From the IMG/VR virus record IMGVR_UViG_3300044798_000210, positions 1 to 26,192 of that record: a DNA stretch of 26,192 nucleotides. One strand, written 5' to 3'. The notes beneath the pieces were generated by a model. That model saw only the letters and a program-made list of their open reading frames with translations, did not search any database and was not told where the DNA came from. Positions 1 through 23,742 of this stretch are shown here, piece after piece (the first letter of the stretch is position 1; the number at the start of each line of letters is the position of its first letter). A program made the position numbers and the translations under genes. Source of the stretch: a virus.

Positions 1-1329
1 TTCGGCGTCAAGCCGGGGCCGTTCCAGACCAAACGATATATCGTCGCCAACTTCTGCGGATTGATCTCGAAGTTGTGCGCCGACCTCCTCTTCGGTGAAG
101 AGCCGGATTTCCTGAATCCGGACGAGGACGAGAAGGGGCAGGAGGCGCTGGATCGCCTGACCGGCGCTTCTTTCCACACCATGAACTACGAGTCGGAATT
201 GTCCAACTCGTTCCGCGGCGATGCGGTCTACAAGGTGCGGTGGGGCGAGCGCGTCCCGAAGTCCGGGAAATCCGAGGCGCTGATTGAGGAGATTTCGCCC
301 TCGCTTTACTTCCCCGAGGTGAACCCGGCCGACTTTCGCCAGGTGACGCGCGTCGCCTTGGCGTGGAAGGTCGCCGCGGACCGGCGGTTCTTTCTGCGCG
401 CCGAGGTGCACGAACCCGGGATCGTCCGGCAGGAGCTGTGGCAGTTGTCGCCGGGCGGAAAGATCGGTGCGCAGGTCCCGCTCAACACCGTCGAGGCTTT
501 CGCCGACCTAGTGGAAGAGGAGCCGACTAAGCTCGACCACATCCCGGTCTTCCACGTCCCGAATTTCCGCTATGGCAGCCGCTTCTGGGGCATGAGCGAT
601 TACGAGGGCATCGAATCGCTATTCGAGGCGGCCAACAACCGCCTGACGCAGATGGATCAGATTCTCGACAAGCACGCTGGGCCGAAACTCTCCATTCCCG
701 ACAGCATGGTCAACGAGGATGGCACGATCCGGCTGACCTCGCTCGAACTCATCCCGTTGAAGCCGGGCGAACAACCGCCGTCGTATCTGACCTGGGAAGG
801 TCAGCTCCTGGCGGCCGACCGGCAGGTAGACCGCCTGATCGAGTTGATGCTCATCCTATCGGAGACCTCTCCGGCGACGCTGGGACTCGACAAGTACGGC
901 GTTGCCGAGTCCGGACGCGCCCTGAAATTGCGACTCCTGCGGACACTGGCGAAGGTGAACAGGAAGCGGCTCTATTACGACGCCGCGCTCCGAGCCGCGT
1001 TGCTGACGGCGCAGCAGTTCGAGGCCGTCTTCGGCAAGACTGACTACGAACCGGCCGAGCCGACGATTCAGTGGGCCGACGGTCTGCCGGAGGATATGAT
1101 GGAGCAGGCGCAGATCGAGAACTTGCGCTTCGCCGCCGGCAACACCTCTGTCGAGTCTTCGATTCGCCGCCTGGACGGCCCGGATGCCGTCACGGCTGAA
1201 CTCGACCGGATCGCCACTGAGCAGGGTCAGGAGCGGACGCTGACGGGCGCCGGAGGTCCGGGCGAACGGCAGACCGAACCGGTGCCGCCGGTAACGCCCG
1301 AGCAGGTGGCCGCGGGTGCGGGGCGATGA
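1..1329 (+). CDS. Phage portal protein, SPP1 gp6-like (5' end outside window)
   Basis: The portal forms the dodecameric ring at the capsid vertex through which DNA is packaged and ejected. The frame is open from base 1, so the N-terminus lies upstream; 442 residues are visible to the TGA at 1327-1329. The C-terminal half has the long helical region typical of SPP1-type portals (LTQMDQILDKHAGPKLSIPD, then DRQVDRLIELMLILSETSPA and GRALKLRLLRTLAKVNRKRL), followed by a Pro/Glu-rich tail. It stands directly upstream of a minor capsid protein, scaffold and major capsid gene, the usual head order; a terminase gene is expected just left of the window. The family call rests on pattern recognition and order. 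The TTG at 61 is not needed as a start because the frame is open before it. Confidence 0.9.
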   Translation, partial: FGVKPGPFQTKRYIVANFCGLISKLCADLLFGEEPDFLNPDEDEKGQEALDRLTGASFHTMNYESELSNSFRGDAVYKVRWGERVPKSGKSEALIEEISPSLYFPEVNPADFRQVTRVALAWKVAADRRFFLRAEVHEPGIVRQELWQLSPGGKIGAQVPLNTVEAFADLVEEEPTKLDHIPVFHVPNFRYGSRFWGMSDYEGIESLFEAANNRLTQMDQILDKHAGPKLSIPDSMVNEDGTIRLTSLELIPLKPGEQPPSYLTWEGQLLAADRQVDRLIELMLILSETSPATLGLDKYGVAESGRALKLRLLRTLAKVNRKRLYYDAALRAALLTAQQFEAVFGKTDYEPAEPTIQWADGLPEDMMEQAQIENLRFAAGNTSVESSIRRLDGPDAVTAELDRIATEQGQERTLTGAGGPGERQTEPVPPVTPEQVAAGAGR

Positions 1330-1565
1330 GCCGGGTTTTTCACAGCAAAATTTTCGGGTGCGTGAACAAGCGGCGCCGTCGCCAGCTCGGCTTTGCCGGC
1401 CGTCGCCGGGAAGATGTGTGGCGGCTCATGGCCGAGCAGGAAGCGAAGCTGACGGCCGTGGCGAGGCTGGCCGCGTATCGGCGGCTCCCCTGGTGGCGGC
1501 GGCTGTGGGCGCGTCTGCGGGCACTGTGCGCGCGGATCTGGTCTCGACTGGTGCGGGAGAGATAG
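1326..1565 (+). CDS. Small Arg/Trp-rich hypothetical protein
   Basis: This 79-residue ORF starts with an ATG that overlaps the portal stop (ATGA), an arrangement that suggests translational coupling, and stops immediately before the GTG of the sigma-like gene. It is very basic (KRRRRQ near residue 16) and has an amphipathic, Trp-rich C-terminus (RLPWWRRLWARLRALCARIW). No family is recognised. It could bind nucleic acid or associate with membrane; both are inference. The tight packing between two real genes is the main support. An overlapping frame starting at 1316 is less convincing because it runs through the start of the next gene. Confidence 0.5.
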   Translation: MSRVFHSKIFGCVNKRRRRQLGFAGRRREDVWRLMAEQEAKLTAVARLAAYRRLPWWRRLWARLRALCARIWSRLVRER

Positions 1566-2183
1566 GTGACCGGCGAAATCCACTCCGGCAACGGAGCAAT
1601 GTCCCCTGTCGTGGCGGAGCAAATTCGGTATTTCATCAGCACCCTGAGACAGGACTGGGATACCTCCCGTGATCTCTACCAGGAGGCCGAAGTGGCTATC
1701 TGGGAGGCGGCCACCCAGCGGGCCACTGAGGACTGTCACGCCTACCTCATCAAGACTGGAATCGGCGCTATCCGTCATTGGCTCCGTGACCGGTCTCGTC
1801 TGATCCGGATTCCCGGCTACCTTCAGGAAAGCGGTCAGACCGCCACCTACGCCAAAACGATTGTCCCTCTGGATGATGTCAGCGAACATCTGGGGACCGA
1901 CTTCGAGCACGAGGACCTGGACCGCATCCGCCTGGACGACCAGCGCTCCATGGTCGAGCAGCTCCTCCCCCGGCTGACTCTCGCCGAGCGTAACGTGATG
2001 CAACTCCTCCTCCGCGGGCGCAGCATCCGCGAGATCGCCCGCCAGCGGCAAGTGGAAGAGGGGTGTATCTATGCCCAGCAATCCCGGGCCGTTCGTAAAC
2101 TTCGCCGTCTCCTGAAGGTGAGGGCGACATGGCCCGTCGCCGGATCGCTGCGGTCCGCCACCAGCCGCGGCCGGGAGAAGTAG
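1566..2183 (+). CDS. RNA polymerase sigma-70-like factor
   Basis: This 205-residue protein resembles small ECF-type or phage sigma factors. Residues about 18-80 form a helical region like sigma region 2 (DLYQEAEVAIWEAA...AYLIKTGIGAIRHWLRDRSR). After a linker, residues about 135-185 match a region 4 helix-turn-helix (LTLAERNVMQLLLRGRSI, then REIARQRQVEEGCIYAQQS and a basic RAVRKLRRLLK), which in this family contacts the -35 element. The GTG at 1566 is chosen because GGGAGA lies 6 bases upstream; the ATG at 1599 has a badly spaced site. It abuts the 79-aa ORF and is followed by the minor capsid gene after one base. Its place in the head operon suggests control of late transcription, possibly of the promoters seen at 3129 and 23579 (inference). 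The alternative is a sigma-like HTH regulator without core-binding activity. Confidence 0.75.
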   Translation: MTGEIHSGNGAMSPVVAEQIRYFISTLRQDWDTSRDLYQEAEVAIWEAATQRATEDCHAYLIKTGIGAIRHWLRDRSRLIRIPGYLQESGQTATYAKTIVPLDDVSEHLGTDFEHEDLDRIRLDDQRSMVEQLLPRLTLAERNVMQLLLRGRSIREIARQRQVEEGCIYAQQSRAVRKLRRLLKVRATWPVAGSLRSATSRGREK

Positions 2184-2184
2184 G

Positions 2185-3132
2185 ATGAAGGGCGCACTGA
2201 ACCCCGAACGCGTCAAGGCGTTCACCGATGCCTTCGACGGTCCGCTGGATTCGCTGGCGGCGCTCTACCGCAAGGCGGCGGCGGACGCGCTGCGAATCCT
2301 GACCGACGCGTCGTCCACGTTGGCGGCCCGGCAGCGCGCCAAGGCCTTGCTGCGCCAGTACCAAGTCATCCTCGCCAACCTGCGCGACGAGTCCGCCTTG
2401 TGGATCGAGACGAACCTGCCGAAGGCCTACGGCCTCGGACTGTCGTTCGCTGATGAGGGCGTAGCGAATATCCGACGCGCCGGCATCAACCTCGGCACGC
2501 CGCAACGGGCGGCTTTCGCCCAGGTGCACCGCGAGGCCGTGGCGGCGGCGGTCCAGGAGATGCTGCGGACCGCAGACTTTGCCCTCGCCCAGATTGGGCG
2601 CCGGGCTGGCGATACGTTCCGCAAGGTCGGCGTCGAGGAGGTGGCCAGGGGCGTGGCCGAGGGGCTGAGCCGCGTCGACGTGAGCCGGAACATCAAGGCC
2701 CGGCTACTGGCGGAGGGCAAGCACTACTTCACGGACCGGAGAGGCCGGAAGTGGGACCTCGACCGCTATACCGAGATGGTGGCGCGCACGACCACGCGGG
2801 AGGCGACGGTCCAGGGAAGCGTTAACCGGATGCTGGAGCACAATGTCCAGCTCGCTCGGATCGTACCCCACCCGGCCATAGATTTCTGCCTTCCGTTCCA
2901 GGGCAAGGTTTTCTACATCGGCCCGGAGCCGAACCCGACGCAGTATCCCGGTATCTCGGCCATGCCGGGAGGCAAGTTGCCGCCGTGGCACCCTCAGTGC
3001 AAGGATTCAATCGCTCCCTTCGTCCTGGCCCTCGCCACGAAAAAGGAAATGACGGCTGGCGAGATAGACCCGACCTGGCTCGGAAGGACGCCGGCGGAAC
3101 TGGAGCGGCAACTTCGGCGCAGTCGCCCTTGA
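2185..3132 (+). CDS. Phage minor capsid / head morphogenesis protein (min_cap2-like)
   Basis: This 315-residue protein follows the sigma-like gene by one base. The N-terminal ~150 residues are helical. The C-terminal half has the family hallmark YTEMVARTTTREA, then an HNVQLARIVPHPAIDFCLPF segment, QGKVFYI, and a final PPWHPQCKDSI. The Cys and His residues of the CLPF and WHPQCKDS motifs resemble the metal-binding C-terminal domain of phage minor capsid 2 / Mu gpF-type proteins. These are low-copy head proteins, usually near the portal, that may be ejected with DNA. Its place between portal and scaffold agrees. The stop at 3130-3132 overlaps the -35 box of the promoter at 3129. Confidence 0.85.
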   Translation: MKGALNPERVKAFTDAFDGPLDSLAALYRKAAADALRILTDASSTLAARQRAKALLRQYQVILANLRDESALWIETNLPKAYGLGLSFADEGVANIRRAGINLGTPQRAAFAQVHREAVAAAVQEMLRTADFALAQIGRRAGDTFRKVGVEEVARGVAEGLSRVDVSRNIKARLLAEGKHYFTDRRGRKWDLDRYTEMVARTTTREATVQGSVNRMLEHNVQLARIVPHPAIDFCLPFQGKVFYIGPEPNPTQYPGISAMPGGKLPPWHPQCKDSIAPFVLALATKKEMTAGEIDPTWLGRTPAELERQLRRSRP

Positions 3133-3156
3133 CAACCTAGCCGGCCGTGGTATGAT
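3129..3156 (+). promoter_or_regulatory. Sigma70-like promoter P1
   Basis: A perfect -35 TTGACA (3129-3134) is separated by 16 bases from TATGAT (3151-3156), five of six matches to the -10 consensus. Transcription would start near 3163, so the RNA begins at or just before the CRISPR-repeat-like sequence at 3166. The -35 overlaps the stop codon of the minor capsid gene. It probably drives the repeat-like RNA and, by readthrough, the genes from 3357 to the capsid gene. Confidence 0.75.
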
Positions 3157-3165
3157 GGACTTGTC

Positions 3166-3201
3166 GTCGCGTCCCTCATCCAGGGGGACGAGGATTGAAA
3201 C
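3166..3201 (+). CRISPR. Solitary CRISPR-repeat-like unit (36 nt)
   Basis: One 36-nt sequence looks like a type I/III CRISPR repeat. It begins GTCGCGTCCC, has a hairpin CGTCCCTC (3170-3177), loop ATCCA, GGGGGACG (3183-3190), and ends AGGATTGAAAC. The last eight bases, ATTGAAAC (3194-3201), match the common 5' crRNA handle left after Cas6 cleavage 3' of the hairpin. No second repeat, spacer array or cas gene is present in the window. A strong promoter sits directly upstream and an intrinsic terminator about 100 nt downstream. This is the layout of phage solitary repeat units that act as RNA anti-CRISPRs. The sequence match is seen directly; the function is inferred. Copies at 4761 and 9065 also have a hairpin before the TTGACAA motif but lack the ATTGAAAC tail, so convergence remains possible. 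Confidence 0.6.
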
Positions 3202-3305
3202 GTGACAACCGAATAGCCGCCCACCCACATCACGCAGATGAGGCGGGCTTGTCGGCAGAACCCTTGAACGGAAACGAGGGCTGTGCCCGACAAGCCCGCT
3301 TTTTT
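3202..3305 (+). ncRNA. Conserved leader element, copy 1
   Basis: This is the first of four related intergenic elements. GTGACAACCGAATAG (3202-3216) is followed by hairpin CATC-ACGCA-GATG (3228-3240). CCGCC (3217-3221) can pair with GGCGG (3242-3246) to enclose it. The same GCGGG bases also begin the terminator stem, so the two folds exclude each other. It lies just after the CRISPR-like repeat and upstream of the gene at 3357. Relatives are at 4772, 9082 and 23621. The role is unknown; attenuation or a 5' UTR function is inferred. Confidence 0.7.
3243..3305 (+). terminator. Intrinsic terminator in leader copy 1
   Basis: GCGGGCTTGTCGG (3243-3255) pairs perfectly with CCGACAAGCCCGC (3287-3299), 13 bp, followed by six T (3300-3305). 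An inner CCCT/AGGG stem extends it. It is strong and has no gene between it and the promoter at 3129, so it should define a short RNA of about 140 nt. A further 7-bp hairpin, GCCCGCC/GGCGGGC (3310-3337), follows and lies just before the ribosome binding site of the next gene. Confidence 0.85.
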
Positions 3306-3356
3306 GTTGGCCCGCCGTCGCCAAGGCTATGGCGGGCAGGCCCCGCGGAGGCAACA

Positions 3357-3629
3357 GTGCAGGCGACGATCGAGACGATAGCGGTTGAGCGCCAGACCGC
3401 CGAGGCGCTGGCGGAGGAGTGCGTCCGCTGCATGGAACTGCTCGACCAGCTCCAGCGGCGGTTCCAGTCGCTGGCGATGGCGGTCGCGAAGTTGGAAGTC
3501 GGACGTTCGCTGGATTCGGGTACGCAGGCCTGTTTCCATCGCGTATGCGAGGCGGCCGCCGCCGGCGCCCCCGAAGCGCTCAAGCAGTGGGCGGGATTCC
3601 GGGCGGGCCCGGGGCCGTCGAGCGACTGA
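3357..3629 (+). CDS. Hypothetical protein (90 aa, helical)
   Basis: The GTG at 3357 is chosen because GGAGG lies five bases upstream (3347-3351), after the terminator; the more upstream ATG at 3195 would start inside the leader RNA. The product is a mostly helical protein, with a likely coiled coil at residues 3-50 (VERQTAEALAEECVRCMELL, then DQLQRRFQSLAMAVAKLE). No family is recognised. It lies in the small-gene cluster between minor capsid and scaffold and is the first gene after leader copy 1. Confidence 0.6.
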   Translation: MQATIETIAVERQTAEALAEECVRCMELLDQLQRRFQSLAMAVAKLEVGRSLDSGTQACFHRVCEAAAAGAPEALKQWAGFRAGPGPSSD

Positions 3630-3780: not shown

Positions 3781-3963
3781 ATGGCTGAGACGGGCAAGGA
3801 TGTCTACATCGTGCCGAAGGCGCAGTGCAACAACTGCGGGGCGACCTCGACCAGCCTGGTCATCCCGCGGGGCAAGCGCGTGAATGAAGCGATCTGTCCG
3901 GAGTGCGGGTGCAAGGATGTGCTCTACCGGATCAGCGAGGACGGTCCGGGGATGGTGGGATAG
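3781..3963 (+). CDS. Zinc-ribbon protein (60 aa)
   Basis: The product has two CxxC pairs, C16-N-N-C19 and C39-P-E-C42, about 20 residues apart, the spacing of a rubredoxin-like zinc ribbon, with basic IPRGKR between them. The ATG follows the previous stop by three bases and comes before a short hairpin (3964-3980). Such small ribbons are frequent in phage head operons. Metal binding is likely; the partner is unknown. Confidence 0.75.
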   Translation: MAETGKDVYIVPKAQCNNCGATSTSLVIPRGKRVNEAICPECGCKDVLYRISEDGPGMVG

Positions 3964-4015
3964 ACGGAGATCTTCTCCGTTTCCATAGACGCGGCCCGGC
4001 GCGGTGAAGCCGGGC
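3964..4015 (+). terminator. Two weak hairpins after the zinc-ribbon gene
   Basis: ACGGAGA (3964-3970) pairs with TCTCCGT (3974-3980) right after the stop codon, followed only by TT. A second stem, GCCCGGC (3994-4000) with GCCGGGC (4009-4015), follows. Neither has a proper T run, so termination would be weak. They may instead protect or space the mRNA ahead of the scaffold gene. Confidence 0.35.
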
Positions 4016-4051
4016 GAGACGCCGACGGGCGGTTAAAAACGGGAGGGAATC

Positions 4052-4759
4052 ATGGCGGAAGTGGCGGGACAGAATCAGCCCGGGCAAGCGGCTCCAGCGG
4101 GTGACAGCACGCCTCCCGCGGACGCAGGCCAGCCGGGGGGAGGTCCGACCGAGACGCCGGGGTTACAGGCGGAGGGCTTTCCTATCGTGCTGACGGACGA
4201 GCAGAAGGCGGCCATTGCGGCGGGTCGGCCGCTCGTGCTGAGCGATGACCAGTATACGAGCGGAGTCCGCTCGCAGATGGAATCCGAGCGCCGCGGCCGG
4301 CGCGTAGCCGAGAAGTCGTTGGCCGACATCGCCGTGCAGAAGGAAGCCGCTGATCGCGCGGCACTGGAGGAGCAGAAGCGGTATCAGGAACTGTACGAGA
4401 AGGAAAAGGCGGCGGGCGAGAAGGTCAACGCCGAACGCCGCTCCGAGCTGATTCGCTCGGACTTCCTCGTGCAGGCGATCCAGGCCGGCGTTGCCGACCC
4501 GAAGGTCGCCTACCTTGTCGCGCAGACCATGCCGGAGTTCTCCGGTGTCACGATCGGAGAAGACGGCGCGATCGTCGGCGTGGAGAAGGTCCTCAAGGCG
4601 CTCGTGGAGGCCAAGCCGTACCTTGTCACCACGACGCGACCGCCGAGTGTGGGAGCGGCGACGAATCCGGGACGGACCGACACGTCGGCCCCGGCTCCCA
4701 AGACGGTTCAGGAAGCGGGTGAGGCGCTGTCCGCGTGGGGTCGCTCCCAGGCCGGATAG
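4052..4759 (+). CDS. Capsid scaffold protein
   Basis: This 235-residue protein lies directly upstream of the major capsid gene, the standard place of a scaffold. The N-terminal ~45 residues are Pro/Gly/Ala-rich and probably disordered. Residues about 75-130 are a highly charged helix likely to form a coiled coil (GVRSQMESERRGRRVAEKSL, then AALEEQKRYQELYEKEKAAG). The next part (SDFLVQAIQAGVADPKVAYL) resembles phage scaffolds of the GP20/DUF4355 type. It would act inside the procapsid during assembly and then be lost. GGGAGGG precedes the ATG. Identity rests on composition and position. Confidence 0.8.
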   Translation: MAEVAGQNQPGQAAPAGDSTPPADAGQPGGGPTETPGLQAEGFPIVLTDEQKAAIAAGRPLVLSDDQYTSGVRSQMESERRGRRVAEKSLADIAVQKEAADRAALEEQKRYQELYEKEKAAGEKVNAERRSELIRSDFLVQAIQAGVADPKVAYLVAQTMPEFSGVTIGEDGAIVGVEKVLKALVEAKPYLVTTTRPPSVGAATNPGRTDTSAPAPKTVQEAGEALSAWGRSQAG

Positions 4760-4760
4760 C

Positions 4761-4859
4761 GGTTCGCCGCATTGACAACTGAATAGCACCCACCTACGTC
4801 ACGACGACGAGGCGGGCTCCCTCGGAATCGCAAGGGGATTCCGGGCGGGCCCGTTTTTT
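4761..4859 (+). ncRNA. Conserved leader element, copy 2 (before the capsid gene)
   Basis: A GCGG-TTCG-CCGC hairpin (about 4759-4770) precedes TTGACAACTGAATAG (4772-4786). Hairpin CGTC-ACGAC-GACG (4797-4809) follows. CCCACCT (4789-4795) can pair with AGGCGGG (4810-4816) with one mismatch, excluding the terminator. Relative to copies 1 and 4, the stem pair A-T is G-C here, a compensatory change. No -35/-10 pair is seen upstream, so it is probably entered by readthrough from the scaffold gene. Confidence 0.7.
4813..4859 (+). terminator. Intrinsic terminator in leader copy 2
   Basis: CGGGC (4813-4817) pairs with GCCCG (4849-4853), with an inner GGAATC/GATTCC stem (4824-4829, 4837-4842), followed by six T (4854-4859). 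It lies between scaffold and major capsid genes, so capsid expression needs partial readthrough, antitermination or RNA processing. Confidence 0.75.
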
Positions 4860-4891
4860 GTTGGCCGTGACGAGAGAACGAGGAGAACATC

Positions 4892-5875
4892 ATGGCGCTG
4901 ACGCCTACCGACCTGGCTGAACAGGTCATCAAGTTGTACGGCCCGGCGTTCGTCGAGACGATCAAGCGGGAGTGCTTCCTGCTGACTCGACTCGAAGAGC
5001 GCGGGCTGATTCGCGACGGCAAACCCGTCATCGTTTGGCAGGCGAACTATGCCGGCAACACGTCGGTTGGTTCGTACGGCCCGGGCGACGCCGCGGGTGG
5101 GGCTGGTAAACAGTCCTTCAAGCCGGCGGCTCTCGATTACAAGTCCGTGCGCGGCGAGGTGGCGATCGCGGGTCAGACCGTGGCCATCAGCGAAGCGGGC
5201 GGATATTTCGTGGATACGGTGCGCACCGAACTTGACCTCGTAGTCAAAGACCTACGCAAGGACATCAACGGTCAGCTCCTCTCGGATGGCACCGGGAATT
5301 CGGCCAAGGACATCACCGGCATCCTCGCTGCGATCAGTGACGCCGGTACTTACGCCGGGATTGCCCGCGGCACCTATACCTGGTGGAAGTCCGCTGTGGA
5401 CGAGAACGGCGGCGACCCGCGCAATCTGACCGAGGCCCTGATCGCGGGTGTTGTGGATGAGGTGACCGACCGCGGAGCCGACCCGATGTCGCTCGAACTC
5501 TGGTGCGGCCCGACCCAGTGGCGGAAGTTCGGCGCACTCTATAAGGGCGAGCGGCGGCAGACTCCCATCTCGTTGACGGGCGGCTACCAGAAGCTCGATT
5601 TCGAAGGCACTCCCGTCATCAAGGTGCCCGGCTACGCGTCCGGGCGCATGGACGCGGTCGACGTGAGTAAGTTCACTTACGAAATGCTCCCGGTGACTGC
5701 GAATTCCGAGTTGGCGCGCTCGCTCCGCAATGTCGTGGCCGTGCCGGGAATTCCGGGCTTTGGGATTCTACTGCTCGGCAACACCGCGGACATCGCCGGC
5801 TTCTGGGTGATCCACTACGGCCAACTGAAATGCTCGAACCCCTATGTCCAGGGCAGCATTCAGGACCTGGCATAG
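4892..5875 (+). CDS. Major capsid protein (HK97 fold)
   Basis: This 327-residue protein has the length and position of an HK97-fold major capsid protein. Recognisable segments are an N-terminal helix (LAEQVIKLYGPAFVETIKR), the E-loop-like stretch (SVGSYGPGDAAGGAGKQSF), the spine and domain region (ELDLVVKDLRKDINGQLLSD) and a late GTPVIKVPGYASGRMDAV segment typical of the family. It builds the icosahedral shell. GAGGAG precedes the ATG. It is the first gene after leader copy 2, probably the most expressed gene of the module. Confidence 0.9.
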   Translation: MALTPTDLAEQVIKLYGPAFVETIKRECFLLTRLEERGLIRDGKPVIVWQANYAGNTSVGSYGPGDAAGGAGKQSFKPAALDYKSVRGEVAIAGQTVAISEAGGYFVDTVRTELDLVVKDLRKDINGQLLSDGTGNSAKDITGILAAISDAGTYAGIARGTYTWWKSAVDENGGDPRNLTEALIAGVVDEVTDRGADPMSLELWCGPTQWRKFGALYKGERRQTPISLTGGYQKLDFEGTPVIKVPGYASGRMDAVDVSKFTYEMLPVTANSELARSLRNVVAVPGIPGFGILLLGNTADIAGFWVIHYGQLKCSNPYVQGSIQDLA

Positions 5876-9062: not shown

Positions 9063-9064
9063 CG

Positions 9065-9176
9065 CGTCCGCCTCGCGGACGTTGACAATCGAATAGCAAC
9101 CGCCCACGTCGCGCAGACGAGGCGGGCTCTTCCAGCGGAGGGGTGGCTCTCACCGCTGGGGGCGCCCGCCTTTTTT
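9065..9176 (+). ncRNA. Conserved leader element, copy 3 (before the tail tube gene)
   Basis: A perfect hairpin CGTCCGC-CTC-GCGGACG (9065-9081) is followed by TTGACAATCGAATAG (9082-9096) and hairpin CGTC-GCGCA-GACG (9107-9119). CCGCC (9100-9104) can pair with GGCGG (9121-9125), the same bases that open the terminator stem. The upstream hairpin resembles that of the CRISPR-like repeat in copy 1 (CGTCCC...GGGACG) but lacks the AGGATTGAAAC tail. No promoter is visible upstream. Confidence 0.7.
9121..9176 (+). terminator. Intrinsic terminator in leader copy 3
   Basis: GGCGGGC (9121-9127) pairs with GCCCGCC (9164-9170), enclosing CCAGCGG/CCGCTGG (9132-9138, 9153-9159), followed by six T (9171-9176). 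It separates the neck genes from the tail tube gene. Confidence 0.8.
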
Positions 9177-9207: not shown

Positions 9208-10035
9208 ATGGCTGCTGCAACGATTACGGATGTGCGTCCAGGGGTCGGAAAACTGAGTGACACCGACCTCATCACGATCATCGGGACGAACTTCGCCGAC
9301 TCGCCGAGCCTGACGAAGGTCTACAAGCGCAAGCACGGCGCCACCAGTTGGGAGGCGGTGACCGCCGGTAACATCGCCTGGGTCTCGGCAACGGAAATCG
9401 CCGTCACCCTGAAGGTCGGCGACGCGTGGGACGGCGGCATGAACGACATCGGCGTGTCGGTCAGCACGGAGTCCGCTCCCGAGGACAGCATGGAGCAGGC
9501 GCTGTGCTTCTACACCGCCGGCGCCGATGCCAGCGCCAACATCATAGTCGGTCCGCCCGACGGGGTCTACATCTCCGGCCTCTATATGGGCGACCTGGCC
9601 GCGGCCTCCGAGTTTGCCTGGGAGGAAGAGATCAAGAAGATCTACACCCAGCACTCGCGCCTGCCGGTCAAGACCTACAAGGGCGATTCGACCTACACCC
9701 TCAGCGTCCCGCTGGCCGAGTGGTCGCTTGAGAACATCAAGGTCGTCATGGGCAGCGCGGCCAGCATCACCGCGGAGGGCGCAGGGCGTCGGCGCCTGAC
9801 CTTCGGTGGCGGGACCAGTCTCGTCGTCTACGACGACGTGCTGCTGATCCTGCCGGGTCCGGACGGGAAGAAGGTCGCCCTCGTCCTCTATCGCTGTTCG
9901 ATCAGCGCGAGCGGATCGATCAGTTGGGCCAAGGACGAGAACGCCAAGCTCCCCCTGAAGATTCAGGTGCTGGCCGACACGTCCCGCGCCGTCGACGACC
10001 AGGTCGGCTACTGGGAAGAGTGGACGGTCGCTTAG
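9208..10035 (+). CDS. Major tail tube protein with N-terminal Ig/TIG-like domain
   Basis: The ATG at 9208 is chosen for the GAGGAGGAAC site upstream; a TTG at 9175 would start in the terminator tail. Of 275 residues, about 1-95 look like an IPT/TIG Ig-like domain (TITDVRPGVGKLSDTDLITI, IGTNFADSP, ISVSTES-like end). Residues about 110-275 look like a tail tube (EFAWEEEIKKIYTQHSRLPV, KTYKGDSTYTLSVPLAEWSL). Position after the terminator protein and before the tail chaperones supports the tube call. Ig domains on tail tubes usually decorate the surface and bind host glycans weakly. An N-terminal position is less common than a C-terminal one. Confidence 0.75.
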   Translation: MAAATITDVRPGVGKLSDTDLITIIGTNFADSPSLTKVYKRKHGATSWEAVTAGNIAWVSATEIAVTLKVGDAWDGGMNDIGVSVSTESAPEDSMEQALCFYTAGADASANIIVGPPDGVYISGLYMGDLAAASEFAWEEEIKKIYTQHSRLPVKTYKGDSTYTLSVPLAEWSLENIKVVMGSAASITAEGAGRRRLTFGGGTSLVVYDDVLLILPGPDGKKVALVLYRCSISASGSISWAKDENAKLPLKIQVLADTSRAVDDQVGYWEEWTVA

Positions 10036-10643: not shown

Positions 10644-10975
10644 CGGTCCTGGCGAGCGCGTTCGACATCCTGCAGTCGGAATACGGGTGGACCAGATGCT
10701 ATATCTGGCAGCACTGTACGCCGGCCGAGACGTTGGTCTGGGCGGACCGCATCGAGCGGCGCCAGGCGCTTCGGTTGGCCCAGGAAACCGAACTGAACTT
10801 CATAGCGGCGGCCTCGGCCCAGGGCGGCAAGCAATCGTTCAACGCCTTGCAATCCGTGTTGCGCAACCTGCGCGACGAACCCGACAAACCCATCGATGCT
10901 GCGAAGGTGGCGCGCCAGTTAGGGTTGCGGCGGCGCTCGCGAAAGGGGCCGCCTGATGGCGCTGACAGTCGGTAG
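10134..10975 (+). CDS. Tail assembly chaperone G-T fusion (via -1 frameshift)
   Basis: A -1 shift at 10568-10574 lets ribosomes leave the G frame after codon AAC (10572-10574) and continue at 10574 in the second frame, which is open from well before the site to the TAG at 10973-10975. The predicted fusion is 280 residues; T-specific sequence includes VAVLASAFDILQSEYGWTRC, TPAETLVWADRIERRQALRL and KQSFNALQSVLRNL. In lambda and most siphoviruses the long form is made at a few per cent and is essential. The internal ATG-free start of T agrees with expression by frameshift only. T overlaps the tape measure start by 20 bases. Confidence 0.8.
10568..10574 (+). other. Programmed -1 slippery heptamer A_AAA_AAC
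   Basis: In the G frame the sequence reads CGA AAA AAC, so bases 10568-10574 form A AAA AAC, a canonical X_XXY_YYZ slippery site. Both tRNAs can re-pair on AAA AAA one base back. A small GAG-CGCG-CTC stem (10578-10587) follows immediately. The overlapping T frame is open on both sides. Confidence 0.85.
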
Positions 10976-13900
10976 CATCGTCGCGCGGATGCAACTCGAC
11001 CTGACCGGCTTCCGGGAAGGCCTCCAGCGCGCCAACTCCCTGCTCGAGCAGTACGGTGGGACGGCGATGCGGTCGGCCATGATGCTCGGCGGGATGAGCG
11101 CGGCCATCGGCGGCTTGGCAGGGGAGGCGGTCAAACAGGCCGGCGAAATGGAATCCTCCCTCACTCAGTTCAACATGGTCGCGAAGCTTACTCCCGAGGC
11201 ACTGGCGAAAGTCACCGAGGAGATCCATGCCTTCGCCCGTGAAGCCGGAGTCGCCGACGAAGTACTCCTCGGATTGCTGACCCGCGTTCACGAGCACGGG
11301 TTCGCCGGCGCGGAAGCCATGGGCGTGCTCGAATCGGCGACGCGGGCGGCGGTGGCCCGCAAGGCCGACGTGGCGGCCTTCGGCGAGTCGCTGGTATCGG
11401 TCATGCGGGCCTATAACTTGGGCGCCAGCGAGGCCGCCAAGGTCACTGATTCCCTCTACCAGGCGAGCGTCATCGGCGCCGGCAGCCTTAACGAGGTGGG
11501 CGGGGCCATGCAGGGCCTGGCTCCGTTGGCGTCGGCCCTGCACATCGGCTATAACGAGGTGCTCGCCGCCCTCGCTACTACCCACACGGTCGGACTCCCA
11601 GCCGAGCAGGTCTACCTCGGGCTGAGTACCGCCATGATGAAGCTCACCAATCCGACCAAGGAACTCAAACGGGCGCTGCAAGATGCCGGTTACGAGTCCG
11701 GGCAGGCCCTGATCCAGGCGCAGGGATTCGCTGGAGCGATCAAGTTCCTGACGGACACCGCTGGCGACGATGAAGCGATGATGATGCAGATGGGTGGCGG
11801 CGTCCGGTCCTTCCGGATTCTGGCTGCCCTGGCCAGCAACGACTCGGCTCTGTTCGCCCAGAAACTCCAGGAGATGGCCGGCGCCGCCGGCGCGGCTGGC
11901 AAGGGGTTCGAGGAATCCGCGAGGACCTGGGAAGTCCGGTGGGCGTCGTTCAAGGTGCAGCTCGCCCAGACCTTCGAGGCCTTCGGGGAGAAGGTCCTGC
12001 CGGTACTCAAGACCTTCGCCGTCGTGCTGGCGGCCTTGCTGCTGCCGCTTCAAATGATGCCGGGACCATTGCGCGTCATCGTCGTGACGGCCGGACTCCT
12101 GTTCGCCGGCCTGGCCTCATTGACGGCGGGCTTCGTCATGTGGCGCATGGGGATGGCCGGCGCCGGAATGGCCTCCTACGGCCTCATGGGCGCCATGGCG
12201 CAGATGGTGGTCGGACTGGGGACGACCGTCCGGACCTGGTTGGCCTCGGTCGCCGCCTTCGTGACCGGAGCCAGAGCTGTCGCCGCCAGCGCCGTCGTAC
12301 TGACAGACGAAATGGCCCTCGCTGGCGCCGGAGTCGGAGCCGCCGGGGCCGCGGCGGGAGCGGGAGTGGCCGCTGTCGGAGGGCCCGTCGGCTGGATTAT
12401 CGCCGCGGTCATCATCATTCCGGCGCTCATCGCGGGACTGGTGTCCTGGCGGGACGCCCAGGCGGCGGCGAATGCCGAGGCGGCGAAGAGCGCCCAACTT
12501 ACTGCGGAGCAGGTAACCGAGGTCCGGGGCCTCATCGACCACCTGCGGGAACTGAACCAGCAGGAGGCCGACGCCCAGGCGAAGGGCCTGAAGCCCGGCG
12601 CCGACCTGCTGAAGGACCAACTCGACACGCGGAACAAGATCGCCGCGCTCTTCCCACAGATCATCGCGGGCTGGGACGCGGAGGGAAACGCTATCCTCGC
12701 CGTGGCGGACGCGACGAAGGCGCTCACGGAAGCACAGAAGGCCAACCTGACCGTGATGCGGGCCAGTGCCGTCGTCGCCCTGGATGCGGCGAAGGTGGCC
12801 GCCAAGGCCGCCGCGGACAAACTAAAGGCCGACGAGAATGCCTTCAACCAGATACAGGCGAGATACAAGGCGGCTCCGGGCGGCAAGGGCGAACAACGTT
12901 CGTGGTTGGATATACCCGGCCCCTTGGGGGCGATGCTTGGGGCCTATGAGCCGGCCGATTTCCCGGCATTGAAAGGCGCGGCTGATGCGGTCATCGTGCA
13001 GGCAAAGGCCGTAGCAGATGCCAACGCGGCTGTCAGATCCACGACGGCCCAGTTGAAGGTCATCGACGACGCCATGGGCGGTGCGGCAAAAAGAGACGCG
13101 GAGGCCATCGCGACCGCAACGGCGGCGCGCCAGACGCTCCAACAGAAGCGCCTCGCCGAGATCGACGCCGAGGAAGCCGCCCTGCGGAAGGCGGGCGTGT
13201 TCGCAGCGACGGCGGCGCAGTTCGCCGAGGCCCAGCGGGTTGCCGCCAAGAAGTCTGCCAATCCGAAGATGCTGGCGCTGGAGACCGACCTGCTGGAGGC
13301 CGAGGGCAAGGTCACCGAGGCGCGGTTGCTGCGGATCGCCGTCGAGCGAGACGCGGAGATCGCCAAACTCGTCGAGATACAGGAGGCCGAAAAGGCGGGG
13401 GCGAGCAAGAGCGACGAGGCCAAGGCCGCGCAGCAGGCCGTCGGACAGCGGGCCGTGCTGGCCGGGATGCGCACTTGGTGGAAGGAGCGCCGCGACCTGA
13501 CCCTCGAATCGGAGCGCGACCTCGCCGATGCGATCATGGGCATGGCCGAGCATACCCTGGAACAGGAAGCCTATGTCCGACAGGTGCGGTTGCGCGAGAT
13601 CAAGGCCGAGGGCGTGAAGATTCACGATGAGTGGATTGCCCGCGGCGCGAAACAGGCGGACGCGGTCGCGGCCGCGAACATCAAGGTCGCCGCACTGACG
13701 CAGACGATGGACAAGGAGTTGGCGGACGCCCGCCGGCGCCTGTTCGAGACCACCGCGGACTTCATCGTGGGCACCTGGGGCAACCTGACGACCCAGTTGG
13801 GCGAGATCGAGACCATGGCGCTGACCCAGCAGGCGGAGCGGCGCGGCAGGGCTCGCCGGGCCGAAGCCGGCGTCGCCCTGGAGCGGGCGCGGCCCACCCT

Positions 13901-14879
13901 GACGCCGGAGGCCTACGCGGCCCGGGCCGAGACCACGGAGGCGCACCTGCGGGCCATGGACGAGCGGGACCTGCAGATCGCCTCGGCGGCGGTGGCGCGG
14001 GATAAGATCAGCATCATGGAGCGGCAACTCGCCCTCCAGCATCAGATCAACGCGGGCCTACAGGGGCAAGCGGCCCTGGAGGGGCAGGCGAAGGAGTTCA
14101 AACTCGCCCAGGACATCCACGCCGCGCAACTCTCGATGGTCGCCGACCTGGAGGACGCGGACCGCAAACTCGCCGAGGAGAAGATCGGCTGGCTCCGGGA
14201 GGAATTGGCCGAGCGCAAGCGGATGCATGACTACGAGTTGTCGGCTATCTCCCTGGTGGCGAACTACCAACGCGACCTCGCCACGGTGCGCGGGGCCACC
14301 GACGAGACGACGATGGCCCGGATCGCCGGCAACGAACTGCAGATGTTGCGGGCGCGGCGCGCCGGCGAGGTGCTCACCGCCGAGGAACGGATGCAGTCGC
14401 TCCAACGGGAGCGCGAACTCATCCTAGAAATGTCCAGGGCGGGAGTGCTGGCGGGTCCACAGTCCCAGGTTCTCTTGCGGGAGACCTACGGGGCCATGAA
14501 TGTGGCGCAACGCGAACTGAAGGCGGCGGATCGGGCCGCCTTCGAGGAGAAGCGCCGGCAGCACGCCGAGTATATGGCGCAGATCCGCAATGAGCAGAAC
14601 TCTCTGCTCGGGATGCTCGACACCATCGGCCGGGGCCTGATCGGGCGGGTGGACGAGATCTTCAGCCGCATACGCTACCAGGTCGGTCTGATGGGCGGCA
14701 TCCGCCTGCAGTCCGAGCTCGCCGCCGCTGGCGGCGCGGCGCCGGCCCTCGCGGCCGGGCCGCGGATCACCAACATCTATCTGGGCAACCGCCAGCTCGC
14801 GGTCTCTTCCGACGCCCAGAAGCTGGCCGACCAGCTCGCCGACTTGCTCATTCGCGAGGAGAACTACCCGAGGGACTGA
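10956..14879 (+). CDS. Tail tape measure protein (1307 aa)
   Basis: The longest gene of the window follows the chaperones, as expected. The N-terminal part (VGSIVARMQLDLTGFREGLQ, ...LTPEALAKVTEEIHAFAREA, ...SLNEVGGAMQGLAPLASALH) matches the TP901-type tape measure domain. Two hydrophobic segments lie at residues about 350-390 (TFAVVLAALLLPLQM onward) and 475-497 (GWIIAAVIIIPALIAGLVSW), probably for membrane insertion during DNA entry. The remainder is long charged helix or coiled coil, up to a short C-terminal domain (RITNIYLGNRQLAVSSDAQK). By the family rule of about 0.15 nm per residue the tail would be roughly 200 nm long. No lytic transglycosylase motif was recognised. Confidence 0.9.
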   Translation: MALTVGSIVARMQLDLTGFREGLQRANSLLEQYGGTAMRSAMMLGGMSAAIGGLAGEAVKQAGEMESSLTQFNMVAKLTPEALAKVTEEIHAFAREAGVADEVLLGLLTRVHEHGFAGAEAMGVLESATRAAVARKADVAAFGESLVSVMRAYNLGASEAAKVTDSLYQASVIGAGSLNEVGGAMQGLAPLASALHIGYNEVLAALATTHTVGLPAEQVYLGLSTAMMKLTNPTKELKRALQDAGYESGQALIQAQGFAGAIKFLTDTAGDDEAMMMQMGGGVRSFRILAALASNDSALFAQKLQEMAGAAGAAGKGFEESARTWEVRWASFKVQLAQTFEAFGEKVLPVLKTFAVVLAALLLPLQMMPGPLRVIVVTAGLLFAGLASLTAGFVMWRMGMAGAGMASYGLMGAMAQMVVGLGTTVRTWLASVAAFVTGARAVAASAVVLTDEMALAGAGVGAAGAAAGAGVAAVGGPVGWIIAAVIIIPALIAGLVSWRDAQAAANAEAAKSAQLTAEQVTEVRGLIDHLRELNQQEADAQAKGLKPGADLLKDQLDTRNKIAALFPQIIAGWDAEGNAILAVADATKALTEAQKANLTVMRASAVVALDAAKVAAKAAADKLKADENAFNQIQARYKAAPGGKGEQRSWLDIPGPLGAMLGAYEPADFPALKGAADAVIVQAKAVADANAAVRSTTAQLKVIDDAMGGAAKRDAEAIATATAARQTLQQKRLAEIDAEEAALRKAGVFAATAAQFAEAQRVAAKKSANPKMLALETDLLEAEGKVTEARLLRIAVERDAEIAKLVEIQEAEKAGASKSDEAKAAQQAVGQRAVLAGMRTWWKERRDLTLESERDLADAIMGMAEHTLEQEAYVRQVRLREIKAEGVKIHDEWIARGAKQADAVAAANIKVAALTQTMDKELADARRRLFETTADFIVGTWGNLTTQLGEIETMALTQQAERRGRARRAEAGVALERARPTLTPEAYAARAETTEAHLRAMDERDLQIASAAVARDKISIMERQLALQHQINAGLQGQAALEGQAKEFKLAQDIHAAQLSMVADLEDADRKLAEEKIGWLREELAERKRMHDYELSAISLVANYQRDLATVRGATDETTMARIAGNELQMLRARRAGEVLTAEERMQSLQRERELILEMSRAGVLAGPQSQVLLRETYGAMNVAQRELKAADRAAFEEKRRQHAEYMAQIRNEQNSLLGMLDTIGRGLIGRVDEIFSRIRYQVGLMGGIRLQSELAAAGGAAPALAAGPRITNIYLGNRQLAVSSDAQKLADQLADLLIREENYPRD

Positions 14880-14881
14880 CG

Positions 14882-15271
14882 ATGGCCGAGTGCGTACTGA
14901 GCGACCTGGACGACGGCAATCCGGTCACCTTCGACGTGGACCCGTCGGTCTACGACGACCGGCCCGCGACGCGGCGCGGTTCGTCCCACGCCGTCCTCAA
15001 CGGGGAGCGGGTCTGGCAGGACTGGGGGCCGAAGGACGCTGACCGGCGCATCAAGTTGAAAACCGAATGGATGGAATCCGCGACGCTGGCCAGCCTCCAG
15101 AGCATGTTTGCGGCGGCGGCCACGCTCTACAAATGGGTGGATCACTTCGGCAACACCTACACGGTGATCTTTGCCGAGCTGGCGCCGACGGCGATTCGCG
15201 GCTACGACGCCTACGAGGTCGAGATGACATTCGAGGTCGTCCAGGTGGGCGTCCCCGAGGGGGAGGGCTGA
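14882..15271 (+). CDS. Small tail protein (129 aa)
   Basis: The ATG follows the tape measure stop by two bases. The product is strand-rich: VTFDVDPSVYDDRPATRRGS, RRIKLKTEWMESATLASLQS, LYKWVDHFGNTYTVIFAELA and AYEVEMTFEVVQVG. Proteins of this size and pattern directly after tape measure genes are often small distal tail or tail tip components. No firm family assignment can be made. Confidence 0.65.
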   Translation: MAECVLSDLDDGNPVTFDVDPSVYDDRPATRRGSSHAVLNGERVWQDWGPKDADRRIKLKTEWMESATLASLQSMFAAAATLYKWVDHFGNTYTVIFAELAPTAIRGYDAYEVEMTFEVVQVGVPEGEG

Positions 15272-23578: not shown

Positions 23579-23607
23579 TTGACAGTTCGGGGTGGCGGCA
23601 GTACGAT
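23579..23607 (+). promoter_or_regulatory. Sigma70-like promoter P2
   Basis: TTGACA (23579-23584), a 17-base spacer and TACGAT (23602-23607) make a good promoter. The start point would be near 23614, only a few bases upstream of leader copy 4, so that RNA would begin almost with the conserved core. It would serve the structural, holin and endolysin genes that follow. Confidence 0.65.
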
Positions 23608-23620
23608 AGATAGGTAGCGG

Positions 23621-23713
23621 TTGACAATCGAATAGTTCCCGCTTACATCACGCAGATGCGGCGGGTTCTGCTTGCGGCAGCCGGGCGGCGGCCTCGAGCG
23701 GGACCCGCCTTTT
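23621..23713 (+). ncRNA. Conserved leader element, copy 4
   Basis: TTGACAATCGAATAG (23621-23635) is followed by CATC-ACGCA-GATG (23646-23658). CCCGC (23638-23642) can pair with GCGGG (23661-23665), bases also used by the terminator. The inner hairpin equals copy 1, while the enclosing stem is CCCGC/GCGGG instead of CCGCC/GGCGG. It has its own promoter immediately upstream. A further GGCCC-GAC-GGGCC hairpin (23719-23731) lies just before the next ribosome site. Confidence 0.7.
23660..23713 (+). terminator. Intrinsic terminator in leader copy 4
   Basis: GGCGGGT (23660-23666) pairs with ACCCGCC (23703-23709), enclosing CTGC/GCAG (23668-23671, 23677-23680), followed by TTTTCTTTT. The closing T-A pair replaces the C-G of copy 3, a compensatory change. 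The interrupted T run may make it leakier than the others. Confidence 0.75.
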
Positions 23714-23742
23714 CTTTTGGCCCGACGGGCCGAGGAGGCGAC

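Follow-up and report, generated by a model that had tools for sequence, protein, structure and literature searches.

The leader ahead of the major capsid gene in this phage is one of four copies of an element found in the window, and the element is best explained as a phage transcription attenuator that acts at multiple sites in the virion-gene region and whose antiterminator hairpin, P1, would be stabilised by a trans-acting factor (probability about 0.6). In other words, the conserved leader probably switches whole blocks of virion genes. The window is the whole stretch of DNA that was analysed, 26,192 nt of IMG/VR record IMGVR_UViG_3300044798_000210 (positions 1-26,192). Judged from the DNA letters, the element has a repeated anatomy and is conserved in divergent phages; in most copies P1 and the terminator have an arm in common, and most copies have a promoter just upstream.

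Genes and element copies in the window

The genes that locate the copies are:

61-1329: portal gene
1566-2183 (+): sigma-factor-like protein (phrog_351; Sigma70_r2 under its Pfam cut-off), between the portal and minor head genes
2185-3132: minor head gene
4052-4759: scaffold gene
4892-5875: capsid gene, start codon at 4892
from 9208: tail tube gene
10956-14879: tape measure gene

The initial annotation had taken the gene behind 4859 for the major capsid gene and the gene at 9208 for the tail tube gene. The first assignment is confirmed by SU10_MCP, which scored over its Pfam cut-off, and by phrog_9953 (major head protein). The second is upheld by phrog_807, with PF25681 slightly under its cut-off.

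A repeat search located four copies of the element, starting at 3202, 4772, 9082 and 23621 and all built on one anatomy. Copies 1, 3 and 4 and the sites that adjoin them are:

3129-3156 (+): copy 1 promoter TTGACA-16-TATGAT, from consensus scans
3202-3305 (+): copy 1 (box 3202-3216, P1 3220-3247, U-tract 3300-3305), with small ORFs and the scaffold gene downstream
9064-9081 (+): 7-bp hairpin ending directly 5' of the copy 3 box; a hairpin placed like this occurs at 0.2% of positions
9082-9176 (+): copy 3 (box 9082-9096, P1 9100-9125, U-tract 9171-9176), ahead of the tail tube gene
23579-23607 (+): copy 4 promoter TTGACA-17-TACGAT, from a consensus scan
23621-23718 (+): copy 4 (box 23621-23635, P1 23638-23665, terminator with TTTTCTTTT)

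Copy 3 is the element that had been noted ahead of the tail tube gene as similar to the capsid leader. The copies at 3202-3305 and 23621-23718, the common 5' box and the second hairpin, which overlaps the terminator, were absent from the initial annotation. The genes behind copy 4 encode a 120-aa protein, a putative holin and an M15 endolysin. No promoter-like site was found in consensus scans ahead of copies 2 and 3, which precede the capsid and tail tube genes.

The box and the U-tract each recur far more often than expected. All four copies start with (T/G)TGACAAYYGAATAG, and a search for this pattern with up to two mismatches gave five matches in the window against 0.03 expected; the fifth, at 15056, has two mismatches and was unreported by the covariance model. 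Runs of at least six T occur three times on the + strand of the window, where 200 first-order Markov sequences gave an expectation of 0.43, and every one lies inside an element. These runs are the tails of three copies, and copy 4 has TTTTCTTTT instead. A stem followed by a U-tract was found in 4/4 window copies and also in relatives. A scan of the window against Rfam 15 gave no match at gathering cut-offs. The near misses (anti-hemB, CC3664, mir-145, SR6 antitoxin, MIR5534, Chloroflexi-1, ctRNA_pGA1, RcsR1, mir-1549, L2 leader and Cyano-2) all fell far under cut-off and were rejected.

The leader before the capsid gene

Copy 2 occupies the space between the scaffold and capsid genes:

4759-4770 (+): hairpin GCGG-TTCG-CCGC, 4 bp, directly 5' of the copy 2 box; a hairpin placed like this occurs at 6.9% of positions
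4772-4859 (+): copy 2, whole element (box, hairpin P1, terminator)
4772-4786 (+): copy 2 5' box TTGACAACTGAATAG, its core that of the rRNA-operon boxA
4789-4816 (+): copy 2 hairpin P1, CCC.CCT / CGTC-ACGAC-GACG / AGG.GGG, fold -14.3 kcal/mol
4812-4859 (+): copy 2 intrinsic terminator, stem ~4812-4853, U-tract 4854-4859

The intrinsic terminator proposed for this position is present, since the T run at 4854-4859 has a stable stem upstream of it (fold -30.4 kcal/mol). Set against 200 dinucleotide shuffles, the fold of the 91-nt capsid element beats 198 (z -2.81). The accompanying claim that no promoter lies between scaffold and capsid was also correct in that two consensus scans of the + strand detected no sigma-70-like site. 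What is a strong terminator doing ahead of such genes? The element looks like a regulated terminator. With no visible promoter, the copies at 4772 and 9082 must be read through if capsid and tail tube are to be made, and readthrough or antitermination, both suggested earlier, is therefore the most economical use of the element. The companion proposal, which ties the elements to the most abundant virion proteins, is not supported, because 2 of the 4 window copies precede other genes.

The very stable stems, together with the hairpin that lies directly 5' of the box in both promoterless copies, could suggest mRNA processing or 5' stabilisation, in which the long stem would be cut, or would be left in place to protect the 5' ends of the capsid and tail tube messages. 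This explanation is very improbable, as a U-tract follows the stem in every copy though T runs are rare in the genome, and it leaves the overlap of P1 with the terminator unexplained.

The element in related phages

A search of viral contigs with the P1 pattern gave 31 stretches, of which 26 were set aside as chance by eye, as were 10 of 11 stretches from another stretch search. The other five from the P1 search (L017, L339, L341, L352 and L364; seven matches) carry a promoter or -10 site, the box, P1 and the terminator in that order. As these relatives were fetched by the P1 pattern, P1 is not an independent finding in them; the box, the promoter, the terminator and the gene slot are independent of the way they were fetched. 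Since L352 equals the second L364 copy (L364b) over the element, the two are counted once among the distinct copies.

The whole contig of L017, L181, comes from a close relative, at 98.8% to window 1-3625 and 83% to 3781-4671, and stops short of the capsid gene. Besides copy 1 it carries a fifth copy, c5, directly ahead of the portal gene. The whole contig of L341, L375/L376 (record G053, 30,295 b), comes from a syntenic phage at 42-62% protein identity, and has one copy between the minor head and scaffold genes and another before the portal gene. The portal-side copy (497-546) was found by covariance model R1, which was untrained on it, with an E-value of 1.7e-7. Likewise, a model for which only the window copies served as training set ranked all 8 copies of other contigs at the top among 105,258 bases, each at E 0.0074 or better, and its next match was at 0.32. 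Run on genomes, model R1 gave weak matches in 4/9, and in 2/392 at E 0.001. The matching stretches L382 and L383 look like coding DNA with no adjoining terminator and were taken as chance.

Two gene slots recur. The portal slot holds a copy in L181, L375, L364 and L352, and the slot before a small basic protein (KVKGGYxWGxHGK) holds one in L375, L339 and L364, with a window copy upstream of a like gene. Of the 10 distinct copies, 8 are closely preceded by a promoter or, at the minimum, a -10 site (partly by eye). All copies found in relatives precede the portal gene or the small basic protein, which again speaks against a marking of abundant proteins, and none lies before the capsid or tail tube gene in G053, the sole relative that covers both genes. 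The promoterless copies ahead of capsid and tail tube are seen only in this phage. A capsid protein search of the viral contigs gave no match, and that search was insensitive because L375 encodes a relative at 45% identity; a terminase search returned only an already known contig and one at 25%.

The contig L181 has further features of its own. A sulfatase gene (PF00884) at 11003-12064 (-) is unusual in a phage and may hint at the host. On the - strand a promoter, TTGACA-16-TACACT, lies at ~8723 (reverse complement 10665) before a ParB-like gene, with a simple terminator directly behind it that has neither box nor P1.

An arm common to P1 and the terminator

P1 lies between the box and the terminator and consists of CRUC, a 5-nt loop and GAYG, below which GGCGG(G) and a C-rich strand form the lower helix. 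It is 28-30 nt long and overlaps the terminator by six letters. Because the GGCGG(G) of P1 is also the 5' base of the terminator, the two structures are mutually exclusive. P1 alone folds at -10 to -17 kcal/mol (-10 to -15 in the four window copies) and the terminators at -31 to -44.5 kcal/mol. When the six common letters are left out, the terminators retain -13 to -25.5 kcal/mol, mostly off the U-tract.

P1 pairing holds in 94.4% of cells across nine aligned members, against 29-56% in slid controls. Covariation is limited to a single pair altered on both sides (A-U in six members, G-C in three), and four pairs are invariant. The number of cells altered on both sides exceeds chance (9 of 500 shuffles as high), but the number of pairs so altered does not (380 of 500 as good).

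How well is the common arm supported? Pairing as strong as that observed arose in 93, 7, 6 and 7 of 500 shuffles for window copies 1 to 4, respectively; in copy 2 the common arm is the 3' arm of P1 at 4811-4816. The corresponding counts in relatives were 18 and 30 for L375, 44 for L339, and 45 and 6 for L364. In c5, P1 gives the common arm just -1.2 kcal/mol and 437 of 500 shuffles were as strong. Support for the overlap is thus good in 8/10 distinct copies, weak in copy 1 and absent in c5.

Because P1 is stable alone and forms ahead of the terminator, it might simply compete kinetically. The element would then be a constitutive leaky terminator with a fixed readthrough fraction that tunes stoichiometry with no factor involved, which is near to the stoichiometry idea of the initial annotation. 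We regard this as quite improbable. The letters of the box and loop are conserved where they are unpaired (GACAA is kept in 9/9 members of alignment A3, and the hairpin loop is conserved too), and most copies lie directly behind promoters, where the promoter itself could do the tuning. The conserved unpaired letters suggest a trans-acting factor.

The 5' box and the boxA of ribosomal RNA operons

All the window copies contain the box core TTGACAAYYGAATAG, which in copy 1 differs by one letter. A genome collection contains at least 111 stretches with CTTTGACAAYYGAATAG, and the loci listed among them number 80, with 84 occurrences. In 19 of these 84 listed occurrences a 16S (12) or 23S (7) signal lies 57-322 nt downstream, and the box core is therefore the core of the rRNA-operon boxA; 52 of the remaining listed occurrences have no rRNA signal and 13 are too short to tell. 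Viral contigs contain CTTTGACAAYYGAATAG in at least 120 stretches, whereas the reversed pattern gave 23. Of 119 viral occurrences that were examined, none had a 16S or 23S signal behind it. The boxA-like box points to host Nus factors, which we take as a lead. The CTT of boxA is absent from the window copies, and the match is weaker in relatives, whose box is GACAACYWAGYCG, degenerate in c5 and lost in the L375 copy at 497.

A boxA core followed by a hairpin raises the alternative of processive antitermination of the nut/rrn kind, in which boxA would load NusB/S10/NusA, P1 would act as a boxB-like site for an N-like protein, and the terminator would merely be the first one overrun. The identity of the core with rRNA-operon boxA and the over-representation of the motif in viral contigs agree with this. 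The lambda boxB has a GNR(N)A pentaloop, and the GCGCA loop of the relatives would fit it. However, a processive complex assembled at copy 1 would need no fresh sites at copies 2 and 3, and the CTT is missing from the window copies. Where a copy is linked to a promoter, its RNA would mostly begin at or near GACAA, and the 5' part of boxA would therefore be absent from it. Moreover, lambda boxB does not, to our knowledge, share an arm with a terminator, and no N-like gene occurred among the proteins scanned, with the early region partly covered. This alternative is, on balance, somewhat unlikely.

A general coupling of boxA and terminators in viruses was considered and rejected, as terminators lay downstream of 17/89 viral boxA sites and upstream of 14/89, with 1 and 2 of 14 at control sites. 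BoxA is mostly single in a viral record (48/50 records among those listed, of more than 100 loci). Sequences of boxA type occur in viral contigs such as L018, L074 and L066, and record G019 has two. In genome contigs of Streptococcus porci (L225) and Adlercreutzia (L251), three boxA copies lie within ~600 bases and, on the signals applied, away from rRNA. BoxA outside rRNA operons, at suhB and elsewhere, is described in PMC5725501.

Proposed mechanism and comparison with known systems

Antiterminator/terminator switches are well known from bacterial metabolic operons. In the attenuator that we favour, the 5' box and P1 emerge first in the nascent RNA, and P1 contains the GGCGG(G) required at the base of the terminator stem. 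If P1 were held by a factor, the terminator could not close beside the U-tract and the polymerase would proceed into the downstream genes. If P1 were left without the factor, the far stronger terminator would displace it and transcription would stop. The factor would most likely be the host Nus complex on the boxA-like box, perhaps together with a phage protein on P1; the other option would be a phage RNA-binding protein alone. We infer that P1 is stabilised by a protein and that one signal would serve all copies and switch the virion genes on. The search identified no regulator for the attenuator. The sigma-like protein at 1566-2183 was rejected as a common factor because L375 has no ORF of that size between the portal and minor head genes.

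Among known systems, the RAT of BglG/SacY resembles P1 in that a single ~30-nt hairpin overlaps and excludes an intrinsic terminator (PMC3369931). No RAT sequence was identified, however, and copies of the element recur along the virion region of a phage. No BglG-like regulator was found in the proteins scanned against Pfam, which were part of the ORFs of an incomplete genome. In the targets of the ANTAR proteins EutV, NasR and AmiR a hairpin likewise overlaps the terminator, and the Enterococcus eut cluster has such an element before several genes (PMC3369931). This cluster is the nearest parallel, having a single kind of attenuator ahead of several genes. An ANTAR target was nevertheless rejected, since it needs two hairpins with six-base loops that have A first and G fourth, whereas P1 is a single hairpin with a five-base loop.

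Likeness to rRNA-operon boxA is confined to the core in the window copies. The lambda nut site consists of a box, then a hairpin, then a terminator. The element has the same order, but its P1 has an arm in common with the terminator and no N protein is known here. The roles of boxA and boxB in lambda nut sites are treated in PMC12691694. The same paper describes the leaders of LoaP (dfn, mln), which like the element carry a small hairpin and an intrinsic terminator, and whose hairpin, unlike P1, has a UNCG tetraloop. Among the proteins scanned there was no LoaP. In lambda Q antitermination the late promoter is soon followed by a terminator, and the promoter-linked copies resemble it in having a terminator close behind a promoter. 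Q-type antitermination was rejected because its site must join a promoter and copies 2 and 3 have none. Several other readings were also rejected. The box is not a -35 element, as copies 2 and 3 have no -10 at the proper distance. Leader-peptide attenuation would need a start codon with a ribosome site ahead of P1, and reading of the sequence found none. T-boxes feature stem I and UGG; by reading, the ~100-nt leader is too short for stem I and the window copies have no UGG. No description of this element was found in the literature on phage leaders, boxA and attenuators, as represented mostly by titles and the beginnings of abstracts.

A CRISPR-repeat-like unit at copy 1

One further feature lies between the promoter and the box of copy 1:

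3166-3201 (+): solitary CRISPR-repeat-like unit, ending in GAGGATTGAAAC

The unit matches Rfam CRISPR-DR9 at 31.2 bits, under the gathering score of 45, with E-values of 8e-4 in 12,056 bases and 4.6e-6 in 66 bases. No second such unit was found in the window or in L181. No array with a matching repeat occurred in any of 392 genomes, and no plasmid or phage match was found. A repeat unit that stands alone, in many cases immediately after a promoter, can be an RNA anti-CRISPR (PMC10651486), and the unit behind the promoter at 3129-3156 is a candidate for one. The terminated copy 1 RNA would be ~140 nt. A wider and unlikely reading joins these observations: the attenuator family would have borrowed the ribosomal boxA core and would gate virion blocks at several sites, the terminated RNA of copy 1 would be an anti-CRISPR with a 5' repeat mimic, and the readthrough RNA would be late mRNA.

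Implications

If the attenuator reading is true, it would account for terminators ahead of genes that need high expression. The family would also represent a new way for phages to gate their assembly genes, one that has been kept while the proteins drifted to ~50% identity.
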